A stretch of DNA of 64,000 nt from positions 558,001 through 622,000 of the forward strand of contig JAKFWC010000023.1 of assembly GCA_021732975.1 (NCBI GenBank), in the 5' to 3' direction. Below, piece after piece: positions 37,464 through 50,978 of this stretch (positions within the stretch are counted from its first letter, which is position 1; each line of letters opens with the position of its first letter). The stretch is from Planctomycetaceae bacterium. GTDB lineage: Bacteria; Planctomycetota; Planctomycetia; Planctomycetales; Planctomycetaceae. Below the pieces are notes generated by a model. The model was not told the DNA's origin. It made no database searches and saw only the letters and a list, made by a program, of their open reading frames with translations. Both the position numbers and the translations under genes were made by a program.

Positions 37464-37608
37464 CAGTCCGGAGCGCGAGCGACGGCAGTCTGGAATCGCA
37501 AAAGCTTTGATATCGGAATTCGGAGCAAGACACTGGCAGAGTCAGTGGCACACACAGCAAACCAGGCTTTGTCTGAACCAGGACATCCGTTGCTCGCGCT
37601 CCGGACTG
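37464..37608. repeat. MITE-like element with 22-bp terminal inverted repeats
   Basis: A 145-base unit in the convergent gap between nadB and the secretin-like gene. Its ends, at 37464-37485 and 37587-37608, are inverted copies that match at 21 of 22 bases (core CCGGAGCGCGAGC). Inside, at 37531-37554, lies a copy of the GCCACTGGC-type arm described at 43448, so two repeat families are nested. No open frame of note. Confidence 0.75.
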
Positions 37609-42107: not shown

Positions 42108-42695
42108 TTACCCAGCCACAGGCGTTGGAGTTTCATCCGACTGCGTCTTCTCGACCAACAGCAGTTTCGGCGAAAATCGTTCTCCCACATGTCCCGAGTA
42201 CCACTTCACCAGCAGAGAGGGGGGGAAGGCAGCCACGGTTCGTTCCACAGCAGTCGTTTCCTCGAAACCGCCGGAATGTCCGGGATAGGCGAGAATCGTC
42301 AACCGGCCGCCGACGTGCAGCAGAGAAATTGCGTCGTCGATCGCCGCAAGGGTCGAGGACGATTTCGTGACGATCGATTTGTCGCCGCGAGGTAGATACC
42401 CCAGATTGAACATCACCGTGGAAACGCAGCCGCGATGCTGCGGTTCGATCCATTTTCGCATGTGAGCGTGATCGTCGTGAATCAGCCGGACATTGGTCAT
42501 GCCCGCGGCCGTCAATCGCGTGGCCGTGCTTTTCAACGCAGATTCCTGAATATCGAAGGCATAGACCTGGCCCAACGGTCCCACTCGTTGAGCGAGGAAC
42601 AGCGTGTCGTGTCCGTTGCCCGCCGTGGCATCGATTACGATGTCCCCGCTGGCTGCCCCACAGAGTTGGTGAGCTTGTTCTGTGAGCGAGAGCAT
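42108..42695 (-). CDS. mnmM: MnmM-like class I SAM-dependent methyltransferase
   Basis: MnmM (YtqB) methylates nm5(s2)U34 of certain tRNAs to mnm5(s2)U in bacteria lacking MnmC's methyltransferase half. The 195-residue product has the SAM-binding motif GDIVIDATAGNGHDTLFLAQ (about 17-36), the acidic strand end VYAFDIQESAL, and VMFNLGYLPRGDKSIVTKSS, which is the strongest sign of the YtqB/MnmM family. The start ATG overlaps the stop codon of the FAD-dependent oxidase by one base (TGATG), so the two are translationally coupled. That neighbour is of the type expected for the preceding step. Family call is confident; the substrate is inferred. Confidence 0.85.
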   Translation of the reverse strand: MLSLTEQAHQLCGAASGDIVIDATAGNGHDTLFLAQRVGPLGQVYAFDIQESALKSTATRLTAAGMTNVRLIHDDHAHMRKWIEPQHRGCVSTVMFNLGYLPRGDKSIVTKSSSTLAAIDDAISLLHVGGRLTILAYPGHSGGFEETTAVERTVAAFPPSLLVKWYSGHVGERFSPKLLLVEKTQSDETPTPVAG

Positions 42696-43897
42696 CAGGG
42701 CCCCTTAGCTCGGCGGGATAGATCGACCGACGGATCGAGTCGCTCGGCACCAGAGATGACCCGCGTCAGATGCCGGGCGAAGTAGGGAGCCATCAGCGAA
42801 CCCTTCGACGCCAGGCCGTTCAGAAATCCCAATTGTGGCGATTGTGGGCGAAACCCCAGTGCCGGCCGCGGATCGCGCAGAATCGGTCGCACTGCGGCGA
42901 CATGATCGAACACTTCATACGATCCGCTCACGACCGTCTGCAATCGCGCTTCCAACTCCCGGCGGCCTTCTGCGGTGGGGATGTTATCGAACCGGGACCA
43001 GTCGTAAGTTGAACCGACGCGCACCACGTCACCGCCGATGGGAGCCAACCATACGTCACCGTGGATCACACGGCGTTCCGTCCAGCCGGGAATCCGCACG
43101 GTCAGAATCTCCCCTTTCGCAGGTTGGAATTCGATGTTCGCGAACCACGGATTGTTGGCGCCGCCGTATCCCTGACAGCAAATCAACCGATGGGCATGCA
43201 ATTGCCATCGCGGTAATTCCACACCATCCGTCGTCAACACGACATCGTTGGGAAGTTGAACATCGGCGGTAAGGCAGGAATCGTGTTGTTCCAGAAAGTG
43301 TCGTGAAACCTCCAGAAAGGGCGCGACATCCAACCGGCCCCCGGCCAGCATCTCAAAACAACCCTGCGGCGCGAGGAACCGGTGCCGGTCGATGTCGGGA
43401 GCAGGCGGTTGTCGGACAACGTTTCCACGGATATCGGCTTCGTTCCGGTGTGCCACTGGCTCTGCCAGTGGTTTCTCTTCGATGGAACCCCCGATGCCCA
43501 CTCCTTCCGGAGCACTGGCAGAGCCAGTGGCACACATCGAAGCCGGAGGCGTGACGAATTCTCCCGACGCGAGGCGGCGTTCAAAATACCGCAAATCATC
43601 CGGACCGGTGAAGCATCGCACCATCGGACCGGAATGAAAAAAGGCCGTGCCGGTCGACTGCTCCACGCGGCGATAGAACTCGACGGCAACCGGCCAGAAC
43701 TCGCTCCACCGCCAAGTGGGAACCAGCCGCTGCCCGGTGATGGGCGTCATCAACCCCGCCGCCACTTTGGAAGACGTGACCGCTTCCGCGCGATCGATCA
43801 CCATCACCCGCAGACCGGCCCAATGACACCACCATGCCAGCGTCGTCCCCGCGAGGCCTTGTCCGAGAATGATGATGTCGAAGTGCCGGCTGCTCAT
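42695..43897 (-). CDS. FAD-dependent oxidoreductase (DAO/MnmC(o)-like)
   Basis: A 400-residue amine-oxidase-type flavoprotein. FAD binding: FDIIILGQGLAGTTLAWWCH at residues 6-25 and VMVIDRAEAVTSSKVAAGLM with the TGQR motif (MTPITGQRL). The C-terminal half has EILTVRIPGW, WLAPIGGDVVRVGSTYDWS and a late FAD contact region VRPILRDPRPALGFRPQ with GLASKGSLMAPYFARHL. This is the DAO fold also used by the oxidase half of MnmC and by glycine oxidase. It overlaps mnmM by one base. Residues about 121-152 (MCATGSASAPEGVGIGGSIE) are coded by a palindromic repeat and are probably not conserved. The substrate could be cmnm5U34 in tRNA; a free amino acid is the alternative. Confidence 0.8.
   Translation of the reverse strand: MSSRHFDIIILGQGLAGTTLAWWCHWAGLRVMVIDRAEAVTSSKVAAGLMTPITGQRLVPTWRWSEFWPVAVEFYRRVEQSTGTAFFHSGPMVRCFTGPDDLRYFERRLASGEFVTPPASMCATGSASAPEGVGIGGSIEEKPLAEPVAHRNEADIRGNVVRQPPAPDIDRHRFLAPQGCFEMLAGGRLDVAPFLEVSRHFLEQHDSCLTADVQLPNDVVLTTDGVELPRWQLHAHRLICCQGYGGANNPWFANIEFQPAKGEILTVRIPGWTERRVIHGDVWLAPIGGDVVRVGSTYDWSRFDNIPTAEGRRELEARLQTVVSGSYEVFDHVAAVRPILRDPRPALGFRPQSPQLGFLNGLASKGSLMAPYFARHLTRVISGAERLDPSVDLSRRAKGP
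43448..43535. repeat. Palindromic repeat pair inside the FAD-oxidoreductase gene
   Basis: Arms at 43448-43470 and 43513-43535 are perfect inverted copies over 23 bases, separated by 42 bases. Each arm is itself a hairpin (CACTGGC-TCT-GCCAGTG). The reading frame of the host gene passes through it without a stop. Related single arms lie at 37531 and 40766. Confidence 0.85.
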
Positions 43898-45818: not shown

Positions 45819-48800
45819 CTATTTTCCTTCCATCGCCGTTCTCATCGTCGTGGTGATCCGCAATGCGGCGAGTGGGGGTGTTGGCTTCCAGTCGACGGTG
45901 AGCCACAGGATGGCGGTGCCGTCGCGGCTGCCGGTGAGGACTTGCTTGCCGTCGGGGGAGAAGCTGACGCTGGTCACATCTTGGGAGTGGCGGCTGAGTG
46001 TGAGGACTTCTTTGCCGGTGCGGGCGTCCCATAACTTTGCAGCTTGATCGAGGCTGCCCGTCAGTGCGCGGGTGGCATCGGGAGAGAACGCGACCGATGC
46101 CACCGGAGCCGTGTGGCCGGCGAGCGTCAACAGGCAGTTCCCTGTGGCGACATCCCACACTTTGGCGACGTTGTCTTCGCTGCCGGTGATCAACCGTGTC
46201 CCGTCGCGCGACAGGTCCGCCGTCAGCACGGCCCATTGGTGTCCGGAAAACTTCCGGATGACCGCGCCCGTCGCGGTATTCCACAACCAGGCGGTCTTGT
46301 CGCTGGATGTGGTGACGGCCATTTTCCCATCAGAGGAGAACAAAGCCGACCGCACCCGGTCGGTATGCCCGGAGAATGTTCGCACGACTTTGCCCTCGGC
46401 AACGGTCCATAATTTGGCCGTGCCGTCGTCGCTCGCCGTCAGCACGAATTGACCGTCGGGGGAAAAGGCCGCGGAGTTGACGAACGCGGTGTGTTCGCCT
46501 TCCAGCTTGCGGACGGCTTGCCCGGTTTCGGCGTTCCAGATGCGGGCGGAATTGTCCCAACTGCCGGTGACAATGAGCGTGTTGTCGGGCGAGAACCGGG
46601 CCGAGGCCACCGCACCGTGTGGGCTGAAGGTCATCCGTTCGCGACCGGTCTTCAGATCCCACAAGCGGGCATCATTGCCGCCGATGGTGAGGACCGCATC
46701 ACCTGGAGCAAAGTTCGCAGCCCACAATAACCCGCCGGTCCGTTTCAGATCGATGAGGGGCGACAACGAGCCGCCGACTGCCGGGGATTGGATCTCGCGG
46801 CCCGTTTCCAGTTCCCACATCCGGACGACGCGGCTTTCGGCCTGAGAGACGAGCAATTTCGCACCATCGTCGGAGATGTCGATCGCATGGATCAATTCTT
46901 CAAATGGTCCGAAGGTGTTCAGCACTTTTGCGGTGGTGATGTCCCACACGCGGATCAATTTGTCGGCACACGCCGTAACCACGCGCTGCCCGCCGGGAAC
47001 GACGGCTATTGTCAACACGCTATCGGGATGTTTCAGGATCGCGTCGACAATTTCCTTGCCAGTTGCCACATCCCATTGACTGACGGTGTTGTCGCCGCTG
47101 GCGGTGAGCGCACGGTTTCCTTCCGGAAGAAATGCGGCTTTCGCGATCCGGCGAGTGTGGGCTTTTAGTTCGAACCTTTTCTCGCCGGAAGTGACATCCC
47201 ATAGCGCGGCGTAACCTTTGGCATCGCCGGTGAGAAGCGAGTGCTCATCCGGAGAGAGCGCGATGGCCGTCACTTCAGCGCGATGGTCGGGGTACGAACG
47301 CAAGAGTTCGCCCGTTTTCACATCCCAGAGTTGGGCCTGCTTGGTGTTCCCGCCCGTGAAGAGTCGTGAACCGTCGCGACTCAAAACGGCGGCTGCGGCC
47401 CGGCCGGTGCGGTCGAACCGTCGCACTTGTGTCCCGGTGGTGACATCCCAGATGCGGGCCGTGTTGTCGACGGCCGCGGTGAGCAACCCCCGACCACGAT
47501 CAAAGAACTGGGCCGTCGAAGCCAGGAACTGATGGCCTTCCTCGAACGTGTGCTTTAACTCACCCGTCGTACTGTTCCAGGTCCGGGCGGTCCGATCACA
47601 ACTGGCGGTCACCACCCATTCCTGATTCGGCGAGAACGATGCCGCCAGTACGGCATCGGCGTGTCCCTCGAACTTGCGGCCCTGCAATGACCGGAGTTCT
47701 TCATACCTGGCGATGCTCCACTCACGCACCGTGGCATCGTGACTGGCGGACAGCAGCGTACGGCCATTAGGTGATGCCGCAGCGGCGCGGACCGCGCTAT
47801 CATGCCCGCGGAATGTTTTGATCAGCGCTCCGCTTCCCATATCCCACAATCGCACGGTGTTGTCTTCGCCGCCGCTGAGAAGCAGCTTGCCGTCATCGAT
47901 CACGGCGAGCGAACGAACGGCAGTGGCGTGCCCGTCCCATTCGCGGAACCTTGCGGGCGGGGTGACACGGTCCCTTTTTTCCAGATTGCGGAAGTTGTAC
48001 GCCTGGAGTTCTTCCGGCTTCCAGACCAGCACGCGGTGATCGAACCCGCCGGTGGCGACCGATTGCCCATCGGCGGCGAACGTGGCACAGTAGACCGGCC
48101 CGCGATGTCCCGTGAACGCGGGGCTGCGACTGACGCCATCGACACTCCACACAATCGCGGTCCCATCCTGACTGACTGTGACGATACGCTGTTCATCCGG
48201 AGAAAATGTGGCCTGCCAGACCCACCAGGTATGACCGCGGAACGCTCGCAGTTCCTTGCCCTCGGCGACATTCCACAAGCGGGCCGTCTGATCGTACGAG
48301 GCCGTGAGCAGCCGTTGTCCATCTTTGGAAAATGCGACGCTGAGTGCCGCGTCGTCGTGACCGGAAAACATCTTCACGTGTTGACCGTCTGCGGCATTCC
48401 AGAGTTGCACGAAGCCGCTGGGATCATCGCTGGCCGTGGCGAGCTGTGTGCCATCCGGGGAGAACGCCACGCTGTGTACATAGACACCGCCGTGTTTCAA
48501 CGTGTGTAGCAATTTCCCGGTGGAGCGGTTCCAGATCTTGGCGGCACCATCCCATCCGCCGGTGGCGAACATGTTGCCATCGGGGGAAACGGCGAGGGCA
48601 TCGAGTGGCGCGCCGGCCGGGAACGTGCGGGTGCTTTGGCTGCAGAGATGCATCAGCCGCCCCCATTCCCAGTTGCGAAGTTCCGGCTTGCAACCGTCGA
48701 GCAATTGTCTTGCGGTGTCGAAGGCATTCTCATTGATCTTGGCGGCGGCGAGACCAATCCGCGCGATGTAGGCTTCGTACTCTTCGGCGCGCTTGGCGAG

Positions 48801-50978
48801 TTCTTCTTTCGCGCGGGCCTCTTCGGCAACCCGTTGTTGCTGTTCGGCGCGGTCGCGCGATTTGACGGCGTCCTTCTTAGCCAGTTCTTCCTGTTCGCGC
48901 GCCTGTTCCGCTTCGAGGCGTTTGCGATCGGCATCAGCCTTCGCGGCCAACGCCTGTTGTTTCGCGATCCTTTCATCATCCCGCGCGATGTCGGCCAAAC
49001 GCTTTTCTTCTTTAGCTTCGCCTTCGGCTTTGCGAGCGATCCCCTCTGCCGTGCGGGCCTTTTCGGCTTCGTACTTGATCCAGAAGAACGCTACCGTCAC
49101 TGTGGCGAAGACGACTGCGGCGAGTCCCACCGCCATTTTCCTCAACGCAGCCAGTCGACCCTTGCGGGCTTCGCGCTCCTGTTTGTCGCCGAGCAATTGC
49201 TGTCGCAGCGTGGTGTGTTCGGCCACTTGCTCATCGAGCAGTGATAGCCCGAGATCGAAATCTCCGCGACGACGTGCGCTCTCAGCATAAGCTTGCTGCG
49301 CCTTGGCAATTCCGGCTGCGGCCCGCTTGTTACCGGACCACAGTTCGTACGCTTCCTGAAAGCCGAAGAGCGCCTTCGCATAGGCTTGGTACTCGTCCGA
49401 CCGCTGCGCTTCCACGAGGTCGTCTTCGGCGCGGCTGGACAGCAAAATGCTCTCGCTATGCGATTGATAATCACGGATGGCCGACTGAAATGAACGGGCA
49501 TCGGCATACCGATCGGCAGGTTCGGTCGCCATCGCCTTCATGGCGATGTCGACGAGTTCGCCTGTCTTGTCGGTCGGCGTGATCTCATTTCGTGCCGCCG
49601 CCATGAGGCATTTCATGGCGTTCTTGCCTTTGTGCGGCGGTTCCCCGGTCACGATTTCGTAAAGCATTGCGCCGAGCAGATAGACATCGCTTTGCGCAGA
49701 AATCTTTTCGATCGGCCCGGTCGCCATTTCGGGCGCCATGTACGCCGGCGTGCCCCCCATCGACTGCGTTTCGGTGATGCTCGCCGACTTGCGGAAGTGC
49801 TTCGACGGTTGTGCGAGGCCCCAATCCATCACCAGGACTTCACCATATTCACCGAGCATGGTGTTCTCGGGCTTCAAATCGCGATGCACCACGCCACGGG
49901 CGTGCGCGAAGGCAATTGCATCGGCGACCCGCATCAGGATGTCGAGGTTTTCCGTCAGCGACTTCTGCGAAATCACCTCATCCCAAGGCGTACCCTGCAC
50001 TTTTTTCATCGAGTAGAACAGCGCACCGGTGCTGTTCTTACCGACATCGTAAATCGGCACGATGTTGGGGTGATCGAGATCGCCGGTGACCACGGCTTCG
50101 GCGAGGAACTTCGCCTTCTGTTTGTCGTTCTCGGCGGCGGGCCCTTTGATCATCTTAAGGGCGACACTGCGGTCAATCGAAGTCTGCCGGGCGTCGTAGA
50201 CCACGCCCATGCCCCCTTCGCCGAGGATTTTCAACAACTCGTACTCGGCATCATTTGCATCCGGCGTGACCTTCACATCGCGTAACGATTTGGTCTTGAT
50301 AACCAGCGTATTCTTCGCCACTTTGGTGGGCTTTTCGCGGGCCTTCATCGTGGCGCCGGGGCGCGTGTTCGCCCCGTCGTCGTCGCCCCATTCGGATTGA
50401 ATCGTTCTGATCAGCGACTCGGGGACATCGTTGGAGACAAAGGTCTTGTCGTTCGCCAGCGAAGCGTGATCGGCAAACGATTCCGTCACAAACGTTTTGC
50501 CGCCATCGTTCTCATCGACGACGAGCGTTCGATCAGCTCCGGTCGCATCGCGCGCGGAGGAAAAATCTCCCACGATGGTGCGATCGGCCTCGTGATCCGC
50601 CGGGGGAACTTCGATGCCGATGGTCTTCAGGCCGGATTGGTCTTCCGGTGGGAATTCGTCGGAAGCGAAAGTTTTGTTGGGATCGGCGTCCTCGGCTTTC
50701 GATGCCGCAGGAGAAGATTCCTGCGAAACGAACTCGTCAGAAACAAACGTCTGATCGGTGGCGTTCGCGGCCTCGTTAGAGAGCGAGGATTCACCGGAAC
50801 GATTTGGTCCCGATGATGCATCGTCGGCGGGCGAAGAGAGCACTTCGCTCATCAGCGTCGCGCCGCCATCGTCCGAGGAATCGAGGCTGGAGGTCAGCCG
50901 CTTGTGACACGCCGAACACAGGCCGGAAACGAGGTCCGCCCCCTGAACGCGTTGGCCACAGTGTGGACATTTCAACAT
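45819..50978 (-). CDS. Membrane-anchored Ser/Thr protein kinase with 21 WD40 repeats
   Basis: A 1,719-residue protein. Residues 1-25 are a zinc ribbon (CPHC at 4-7, CSAC at 21-24). Residues 70-195 carry repeated short motifs of the type TFVSDEF, TFASDEF, TIVGDF, TLVVDEN, TFVTESF and TFVSND. The kinase domain (about 246-520) has the P-loop GEGGMGVVY, VALKMIK, HRDLKPEN at 365-372, MDWGLAQ in place of DFG, and GTPAYMAPE. A membrane helix is at about 614-635, then a long charged coiled coil to about 760. The remaining 900 or so residues are WD40 repeats; I count 21 units, which would make three seven-bladed propellers outside the membrane. The signal sensed and the substrates are unknown. It follows the giant exoprotein gene by 143 bases on the same strand. 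Confidence 0.95.
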   Translation of the reverse strand: MLKCPHCGQRVQGADLVSGLCSACHKRLTSSLDSSDDGGATLMSEVLSSPADDASSGPNRSGESSLSNEAANATDQTFVSDEFVSQESSPAASKAEDADPNKTFASDEFPPEDQSGLKTIGIEVPPADHEADRTIVGDFSSARDATGADRTLVVDENDGGKTFVTESFADHASLANDKTFVSNDVPESLIRTIQSEWGDDDGANTRPGATMKAREKPTKVAKNTLVIKTKSLRDVKVTPDANDAEYELLKILGEGGMGVVYDARQTSIDRSVALKMIKGPAAENDKQKAKFLAEAVVTGDLDHPNIVPIYDVGKNSTGALFYSMKKVQGTPWDEVISQKSLTENLDILMRVADAIAFAHARGVVHRDLKPENTMLGEYGEVLVMDWGLAQPSKHFRKSASITETQSMGGTPAYMAPEMATGPIEKISAQSDVYLLGAMLYEIVTGEPPHKGKNAMKCLMAAARNEITPTDKTGELVDIAMKAMATEPADRYADARSFQSAIRDYQSHSESILLSSRAEDDLVEAQRSDEYQAYAKALFGFQEAYELWSGNKRAAAGIAKAQQAYAESARRRGDFDLGLSLLDEQVAEHTTLRQQLLGDKQEREARKGRLAALRKMAVGLAAVVFATVTVAFFWIKYEAEKARTAEGIARKAEGEAKEEKRLADIARDDERIAKQQALAAKADADRKRLEAEQAREQEELAKKDAVKSRDRAEQQQRVAEEARAKEELAKRAEEYEAYIARIGLAAAKINENAFDTARQLLDGCKPELRNWEWGRLMHLCSQSTRTFPAGAPLDALAVSPDGNMFATGGWDGAAKIWNRSTGKLLHTLKHGGVYVHSVAFSPDGTQLATASDDPSGFVQLWNAADGQHVKMFSGHDDAALSVAFSKDGQRLLTASYDQTARLWNVAEGKELRAFRGHTWWVWQATFSPDEQRIVTVSQDGTAIVWSVDGVSRSPAFTGHRGPVYCATFAADGQSVATGGFDHRVLVWKPEELQAYNFRNLEKRDRVTPPARFREWDGHATAVRSLAVIDDGKLLLSGGEDNTVRLWDMGSGALIKTFRGHDSAVRAAAASPNGRTLLSASHDATVREWSIARYEELRSLQGRKFEGHADAVLAASFSPNQEWVVTASCDRTARTWNSTTGELKHTFEEGHQFLASTAQFFDRGRGLLTAAVDNTARIWDVTTGTQVRRFDRTGRAAAAVLSRDGSRLFTGGNTKQAQLWDVKTGELLRSYPDHRAEVTAIALSPDEHSLLTGDAKGYAALWDVTSGEKRFELKAHTRRIAKAAFLPEGNRALTASGDNTVSQWDVATGKEIVDAILKHPDSVLTIAVVPGGQRVVTACADKLIRVWDITTAKVLNTFGPFEELIHAIDISDDGAKLLVSQAESRVVRMWELETGREIQSPAVGGSLSPLIDLKRTGGLLWAANFAPGDAVLTIGGNDARLWDLKTGRERMTFSPHGAVASARFSPDNTLIVTGSWDNSARIWNAETGQAVRKLEGEHTAFVNSAAFSPDGQFVLTASDDGTAKLWTVAEGKVVRTFSGHTDRVRSALFSSDGKMAVTTSSDKTAWLWNTATGAVIRKFSGHQWAVLTADLSRDGTRLITGSEDNVAKVWDVATGNCLLTLAGHTAPVASVAFSPDATRALTGSLDQAAKLWDARTGKEVLTLSRHSQDVTSVSFSPDGKQVLTGSRDGTAILWLTVDWKPTPPLAALRITTTMRTAMEGK

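Follow-up and report, generated by a model that had tools for sequence, protein, structure and literature searches.

The question raised by this locus is whether a flavin-dependent oxidase gene that runs into a gene for the tRNA methyltransferase MnmM supplies that enzyme with its substrate, so that the two products together would do what the bifunctional protein MnmC does in E. coli. The locus lies in a 64,000-nucleotide stretch of DNA from a Planctomycetaceae bacterium, the whole of which is referred to below as the window. The gene pair consists of the following features.

42695 to 43897, minus strand: FAD-dependent DAO-fold oxidase (400 aa, ATG start; open reading frame and PF01266)
42108 to 42695, minus strand: MnmM (YtqB-type), putative nm5(s2)U34 methyltransferase (195 aa, ATG start; NF053511)
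42693 to 42697, minus strand: TGATG stop/start overlap of one base at the oxidase/MnmM junction

The gene pair and its junction

The initial annotation, made from the letters alone, had claimed that a DAO-type flavoprotein gene and an MnmM-family gene overlap by one base (TGATG), and this held, both open reading frames being present where it had placed them. At the junction, GGGCCCTGATGCTCTCG, the two genes share a single A, which ends the oxidase stop codon TGA and opens the MnmM ATG, and in relatives from the same family the two genes overlap by 1, 4 or 13 nt. Gene identity and the overlap are shown; translational coupling as the mechanism is inferred.

The product of the second gene scores 181.2 bits against the NCBIfam equivalog NF053511 (tRNA_U34_MnmM; cut-off 135) and 131 bits against PF06962. 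Residues reported as essential in B. subtilis MnmM include D34, N101, Y104, K110, Y141 and H144 (PMC9976899), and all six have counterparts in the window protein (D30, N97, Y100, K106, Y137 and H140, respectively), K11 not being assigned. Except for K106, these counterparts are invariant across eight aligned MnmM sequences. On score and residues together, there is little doubt that this gene is MnmM, the methylation of nm5s2U34 itself being inferred.

Linkage, co-inheritance and pathway context

In a phylum sample of 199 genomes (oxidase matches counted at E < 1e-20), the oxidase was found in exactly eight genomes, all from the window's own family, and these same eight are all the MnmM-positive genomes of that family in the sample. 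A profile built from these family oxidases was then run over GTDB genome contigs and yielded 317 relatives; the 80 best were retained, and 79 named loci were scored. Relatives were found in Planctomycetota, Hyphomicrobiales, Verrucomicrobiota and Acidobacteriota. Scoring revealed that (i) at 22 of the 79 loci a single open reading frame encodes both proteins, the oxidase at the N-terminus and MnmM behind an in-frame linker of 4 to 30 residues, (ii) 37 carry MnmM just downstream of the oxidase on the same strand, and (iii) the oxidase at the other 20 is without an adjoining MnmM, and a number of these loci lie at contig ends. Fusion and adjacency together account for 59 of the 79 loci; the pairing is far beyond chance and is no local accident. 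Named hosts include Schlesneria, Gimesia, Gemmataceae, Hyphomicrobiales and Verrucomicrobiota; an adjacent pair is present in the isolate Persicirhabdus sediminis (Verrucomicrobiota) and on the complete chromosome CP018226, and a fused form in Acidobacteria bacterium Mor1 (L112, 538 aa); a fusion from Schlesneria (L081) has 564 aa, and the split operon is seen in relatives of Gimesia or Planctomicrobium type. Searches of E. coli genomes for related DNA and of plasmids for a related protein found none.

On a quick tree of the oxidases, fused and unfused states interleave, with at least eight changes. The patristic distances of oxidase and MnmM are correlated (Spearman 0.57, n = 44 linked loci; none of 500 permutations reached this value), and the pairs from Hyphomicrobiales fall together in the oxidase tree and the MnmM tree alike. 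In the model of a natural fusion (L109), two domains are predicted with confidence: the N-terminal domain matches glycine oxidase and MnmC, and the C-terminal domain matches B. subtilis MnmM in its complex with an anticodon stem-loop (8h0s, Z 29.9).

Co-inheritance was scored in a class sample of 249 genomes: the oxidase is present in 93 of them, MnmM in 84 and both genes in 68; in 60 of the 67 pairs that could be located, the genes are adjacent or fused. The Fisher value for this co-occurrence, 1e-24, is overstated since the genomes are related. A fairer measure comes from the window's family, in which 51 genomes carry both genes and 17 carry neither, with no discordant genome. The pair occurs in 20 genera of the family and genomes without it in 12, the single genus holding both kinds being the window's own. 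Four of the 51 genomes (G024, G248, G268 and G324) have kept both genes though these lie far apart. The concerted presence and absence in this family is shown, as is the recurrent linkage and fusion.

Outside the window's family, 25 of the 93 oxidase-positive class genomes, mostly from families f82 and f88, are without MnmM, and 16 of the 84 MnmM-positive ones, all from family f81, are without the oxidase; neither gene therefore strictly needs the other. An oxidase with the signature residues described below is kept in G207, G222, G277, G354 and others of the class sample with no MnmM in the genome, and is found with no MnmM beside it at loci L087, L092, L094 and L096. Several of the oxidase-only genomes are named Gemmataceae or Isosphaeraceae. 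It is possible that such genomes use another methyltransferase, or that they stop at nm5U, which may then be the end product at the wobble uridine; no alternative methyltransferase was recognised, in the list of open reading frames, beside the oxidase where MnmM is missing.

In family f81, loci L182 to L187 have MnmM without the oxidase, without TIGR01212 and with no evident partner gene adjoining; this family may rely on the MnmEG ammonium route or on an unidentified oxidase. No oxidase-like gene was seen beside MnmM in f81 or in the distant genome G107. Two genomes of Planctomycetota family f56, G071 and G107 (loci L035 and L032, respectively), carry MnmM over the cut-off without this oxidase and with no TIGR01212 over the cut-off, and in G107 MnmM is followed by a short open reading frame that reads like a KdsC-type phosphatase.

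The assembly of the window's own genome (G000) is 65% complete, and absences rest on G228, a near-complete genome of the same genus, and on other near-complete relatives. MnmG is above its cut-off in G000, and a full-length MnmE homologue, the genome's best match, scores 221 bits where the strict cut-off is 253. Neither the MnmC(m) domain (PF05430) nor a YtqA-type radical-SAM protein was found in G000 or G228. Clear PF05430 matches in the class sample (60 to 83 bits) were confined to family f2, where eight genomes gave them; neither the oxidase nor MnmM is present in any of the eight. Marginal matches (23 to 25 bits), mostly in much longer frames and probably due to chance, came from some of the oxidase-positive genomes. 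TIGR01212, the radical-SAM YhcC/YtqA family that includes MnmL, was found in none of the 93 oxidase-positive and none of the 84 MnmM-positive class genomes. The presence of MnmG and of the MnmE homologue is shown, and so is the absence of the known alternatives. MnmL as the partner of MnmM in these genomes was rejected on the absence of TIGR01212 from the oxidase-positive and MnmM-positive members of the class sample; this model also covers E. coli YhcC, and its presence elsewhere does not prove MnmL.

Fold and active site of the oxidase

The window oxidase scores 70 bits against the Pfam DAO family (PF01266; cut-off 27.9), and the families that it matches above their cut-offs are general FAD families only. 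Its best single NCBIfam score is with the ThiO model (TIGR02352; 72.8 bits), below the curated cut-off of 250.8, and E. coli MnmC itself obtains 58 bits against that model. Against the MnmC oxidase half (MnmC1, TIGR03197) it scores 33.9 bits, below the curated cut-off of 174.2, and three oxidase-MnmM fusions (62.8 to 68 bits) also fall below this value.

An AlphaFold2 model of the oxidase is confident (pLDDT 89.1, pTM 0.88). In structural alignment of this model (VIA-align), glycine oxidases rank first, with Z of about 34 to 37 (top 36.9), and iminodiacetate oxidase reaches 33.4, the MnmC oxidase half (3pvc, 3sgl, 3ps9 and 3awi) 32.7 to 32.9 over ~340 residues, and sarcosine and dimethylglycine oxidases about 30 to 32. 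The DAO/glycine-oxidase fold of MnmC(o) is shown by the model. The Foldseek/VIA ranking alone cannot separate glycine oxidase from MnmC, both being near the top, and in both sequence and fold the oxidase lies at least as close to glycine oxidase as to MnmC(o). Whether its ancestry lies with ThiO or with MnmC(o) was not resolved by a quick tree, in which the branch of E. coli MnmC(o) measures 8.3 changes per column.

The oxidase also has a feature that the initial annotation had missed.

43403 to 43549, minus strand: private in-frame insert in the oxidase (about residues 117 to 165, limits approximate)

By alignment, this insert of ~50 residues is missing from relatives of the window oxidase; it is modelled as disordered, with pLDDT < 50 at residues 124 to 155, and holds a perfect 23-nt inverted repeat (43448-43470 and 43513-43535). 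A 21-nt dispersed repeat, GTGCCACTGGCTCTGCCAGTG, forms a perfect inverted pair within the insert (43448-43535), and a third copy, with one mismatch, lies at 37531-37551 of the window. Tentatively, it looks as if a small palindromic repeat element had inserted in frame.

Active-site residues were matched by sequence alignment to glycine oxidase (GO; 3if9), and their conservation was followed over 66 oxidases of the family. Arg302 of GO is its carboxylate-binding residue; it corresponds to R337 in the window oxidase and is invariant (66/66). The Arg329-Asn330-Gly (RNG) stretch of GO is Ser-Lys-Gly in the window oxidase and S/A-K/R-G in all 66, with Ala in place of Ser in four and K/R365 in every one; E. 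coli MnmC has SRG at the same position, plus the Arg. GO Tyr246 is replaced by W283, an invariant Trp (66/66) that is found at this position in neither reference (GO or E. coli MnmC). Among Tyr246, Arg302 and Arg329 of the GO active site, the family retains only Arg302, and the MnmC(o) pattern of an S-basic-G motif with a carboxylate-binding Arg is met. This pattern is shown. As R337 is conserved, the site fits a carboxymethyl substrate, and we infer from the alignment that it would suit a carboxymethylamine and is no plain glycine-oxidase site.

Proposed function, known systems and rival readings

We consider it likely that the two enzymes together are a functional analogue of bifunctional MnmC, in which the oxidase would make nm5(s2)U from cmnm5(s2)U for MnmM; the enzymatic function is inferred, without tRNA data. 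MnmE-MnmG would put cmnm5 on tRNA U34, from glycine, and the DAO-fold flavoenzyme would, via FAD, oxidise the C-N bond of the carboxymethylamino group. Hydrolysis of the imine would give nm5(s2)U34 and glyoxylate, the reduced flavin would be reoxidised, probably by O2, and MnmM with SAM would convert nm5(s2)U34 to mnm5(s2)U34. The stop/start overlap would couple translation of the two proteins in the window's lineage, and in many relatives both putative activities lie on one chain, oxidase first. The substrate and reaction of the oxidase and the order of the steps are inferred, not shown. A bolder reading, which we also hold to be probable, is that of a second, independently assembled bifunctional wobble-uridine enzyme, composed of a distinct oxidase subfamily of the glycine-oxidase/MnmC(o) superfamily and of MnmM in reversed order, spread as a unit over Planctomycetota, Alphaproteobacteria, Verrucomicrobiota and Acidobacteriota and repeatedly fused or split; it would provide the oxidase for MnmM organisms without MnmC and MnmL.

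The proposal of the initial annotation that the coupled oxidase supplies nm5U for MnmM is supported, the reaction being inferred. A lack of recurrent co-occurrence, a full-length mnmC elsewhere in the genome or an active site like that of glycine or sarcosine oxidase and unlike MnmC(o) would have refuted it; all three were checked and none did. The two families recur together, many relatives fusing both proteins; no MnmC-type methyltransferase was found in G000 or G228, MnmG and a full-length MnmE homologue being found in G000; and the active site is not simply that of GO, Ser-Lys standing for Arg329-Asn330 much as Ser-Arg does in MnmC(o). Structural comparison with the MnmC oxidase half, a further point that it had raised, gave the Z values above, glycine oxidases being higher. 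Its statement that the first step lacks an assigned enzyme in MnmM bacteria is corrected, MnmL being listed (PMC12548931), and its description of a split MnmC system held in part, a single bifunctional protein being present in many Planctomycetota.

The pair resembles E. coli MnmC in that a FAD oxidase of DAO/glycine-oxidase fold is joined or coupled to an nm5U34 methyltransferase, in the S-basic-G motif and conserved carboxylate-binding Arg, and in the two steps proposed. It differs in that (i) its methyltransferase is MnmM and not MnmC(m), the two having poor sequence homology and different structures (PMC9976899), (ii) MnmC has the methyltransferase N-terminal to the oxidase, whereas the family fusions have the oxidase N-terminal, (iii) its oxidases are below the MnmC1 cut-off (34 to 68 bits in the proteins scored vs 174.2), and (iv) the window pair is split by the stop/start overlap, whereas E. 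coli MnmC is a single bifunctional protein. MnmC(o) itself shares the fold of glycine oxidase and can function as a domain on its own (PMC3648344, PMC3936742). The MnmL-MnmM system of Bacilli (YtqA radical SAM and YtqB) has the same last-step enzyme, but there the first step is assigned to radical-SAM MnmL, whose family the oxidase-positive class genomes lack. A 2025 review (PMC12548931) names MnmL as an alternative to MnmC for the nm5s2U step and refers to Jaroch et al. 2024 (J Bacteriol, PMC11025329; on alternate mnm5s2U routes), who reportedly assigned the first step in Bacilli to MnmL and whose abstract reportedly mentions fusion proteins and alternate arrangements; an earlier published notice of the oxidase-MnmM arrangement in that work is possible. 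ThiO, CmiS2 and the iminodiacetate oxidase IdaA share the fold, are the closest solved structures (Z 33 to 37) and likewise oxidise an amine at the C-N bond beside a carboxylate, but they act on free small-molecule substrates and have no MnmM linkage in anything seen here, and Arg329 and Tyr246 of GO are replaced in the window oxidase family. The stand-alone MnmC2 of A. aeolicus (DUF752) is likewise a methyltransferase for the same step without a fused oxidase, but, being an MnmC(m) homologue, it is not MnmM, and to our knowledge it has no partner oxidase gene of this kind.

According to the MnmM paper of 2023 (PMC9976899), the enzyme that takes the place of MnmC(o) in MnmM organisms was unknown and alphaproteobacteria are without mnmC(o); planctomycetes are not among the main mnmM lineages that it names. 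If our proposal is true, the oxidase family is a candidate for the missing oxidase of bacteria without MnmC and without the radical-SAM substitute, one that is directly assayable and covers part of that gap, and the same two-step pathway was assembled twice, with different methyltransferase families and opposite domain order. Natural fusions allow a simple biochemical test, as one protein would carry out two sequential tRNA steps.

A referee may hold that the oxidase is a glycine oxidase (ThiO-type, for thiamine synthesis) or another small-amine oxidase with MnmM as an incidental neighbour. For this speak the ThiO model as the best NCBIfam score, the structural ranking (Z 36.9 for glycine oxidases vs 32.9 for MnmC) and the oxidase without MnmM in some lineages; against it, 72.8 bits is far under the cut-off of 250.8 and E. 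coli MnmC itself obtains 58, GO Arg329 is gone with an MnmC-like S-K/R-G in its place, and repeated MnmM fusion with concerted presence and absence is unexpected for a thiamine enzyme. We regard this reading as unlikely, and an ordinary ThiO neighbour was rejected as the main reading on the fusions and the family-wide concordance. Equally improbable, in our judgement, is that the oxidase acts on U34 otherwise, for instance by N-demethylating mnm5U in the manner of sarcosine oxidase or by oxidising some other wobble precursor, MnmM then catalysing either the reverse reaction or the following one. The DAO fold does include N-demethylating sarcosine and dimethylglycine oxidases (Z about 30 to 32), and the Trp that replaces GO Tyr246 is peculiar to this family, but the conserved carboxylate-binding R337 suits a carboxymethyl substrate, and demethylation plus methylation would be a futile cycle.

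A further point against our proposal is that MnmEG makes nm5U directly from ammonium, as shown in E. coli (PMC3936742), so that MnmM does not require the oxidase. MnmM might then use nm5U from this route, with a metabolically unrelated oxidase and a coupling that reflects shared regulation only; family f81, which has MnmM without this oxidase and with no related gene adjoining, agrees with such a reading. Many lineages, however, have covalent fusions, and the 51/17/0 concordance extends to genomes in which the genes are unlinked; we consider this reading the least likely of the three.

Two further genes of the window lie on either side of the pair. An RNA pseudouridine synthase gene (PF00849; 39750-40733, plus strand), another RNA-modification gene, is found near it, and an open reading frame of 1719 aa (45819-50978, minus strand) reads by eye like a Ser/Thr kinase domain followed by many WD40-like repeats.
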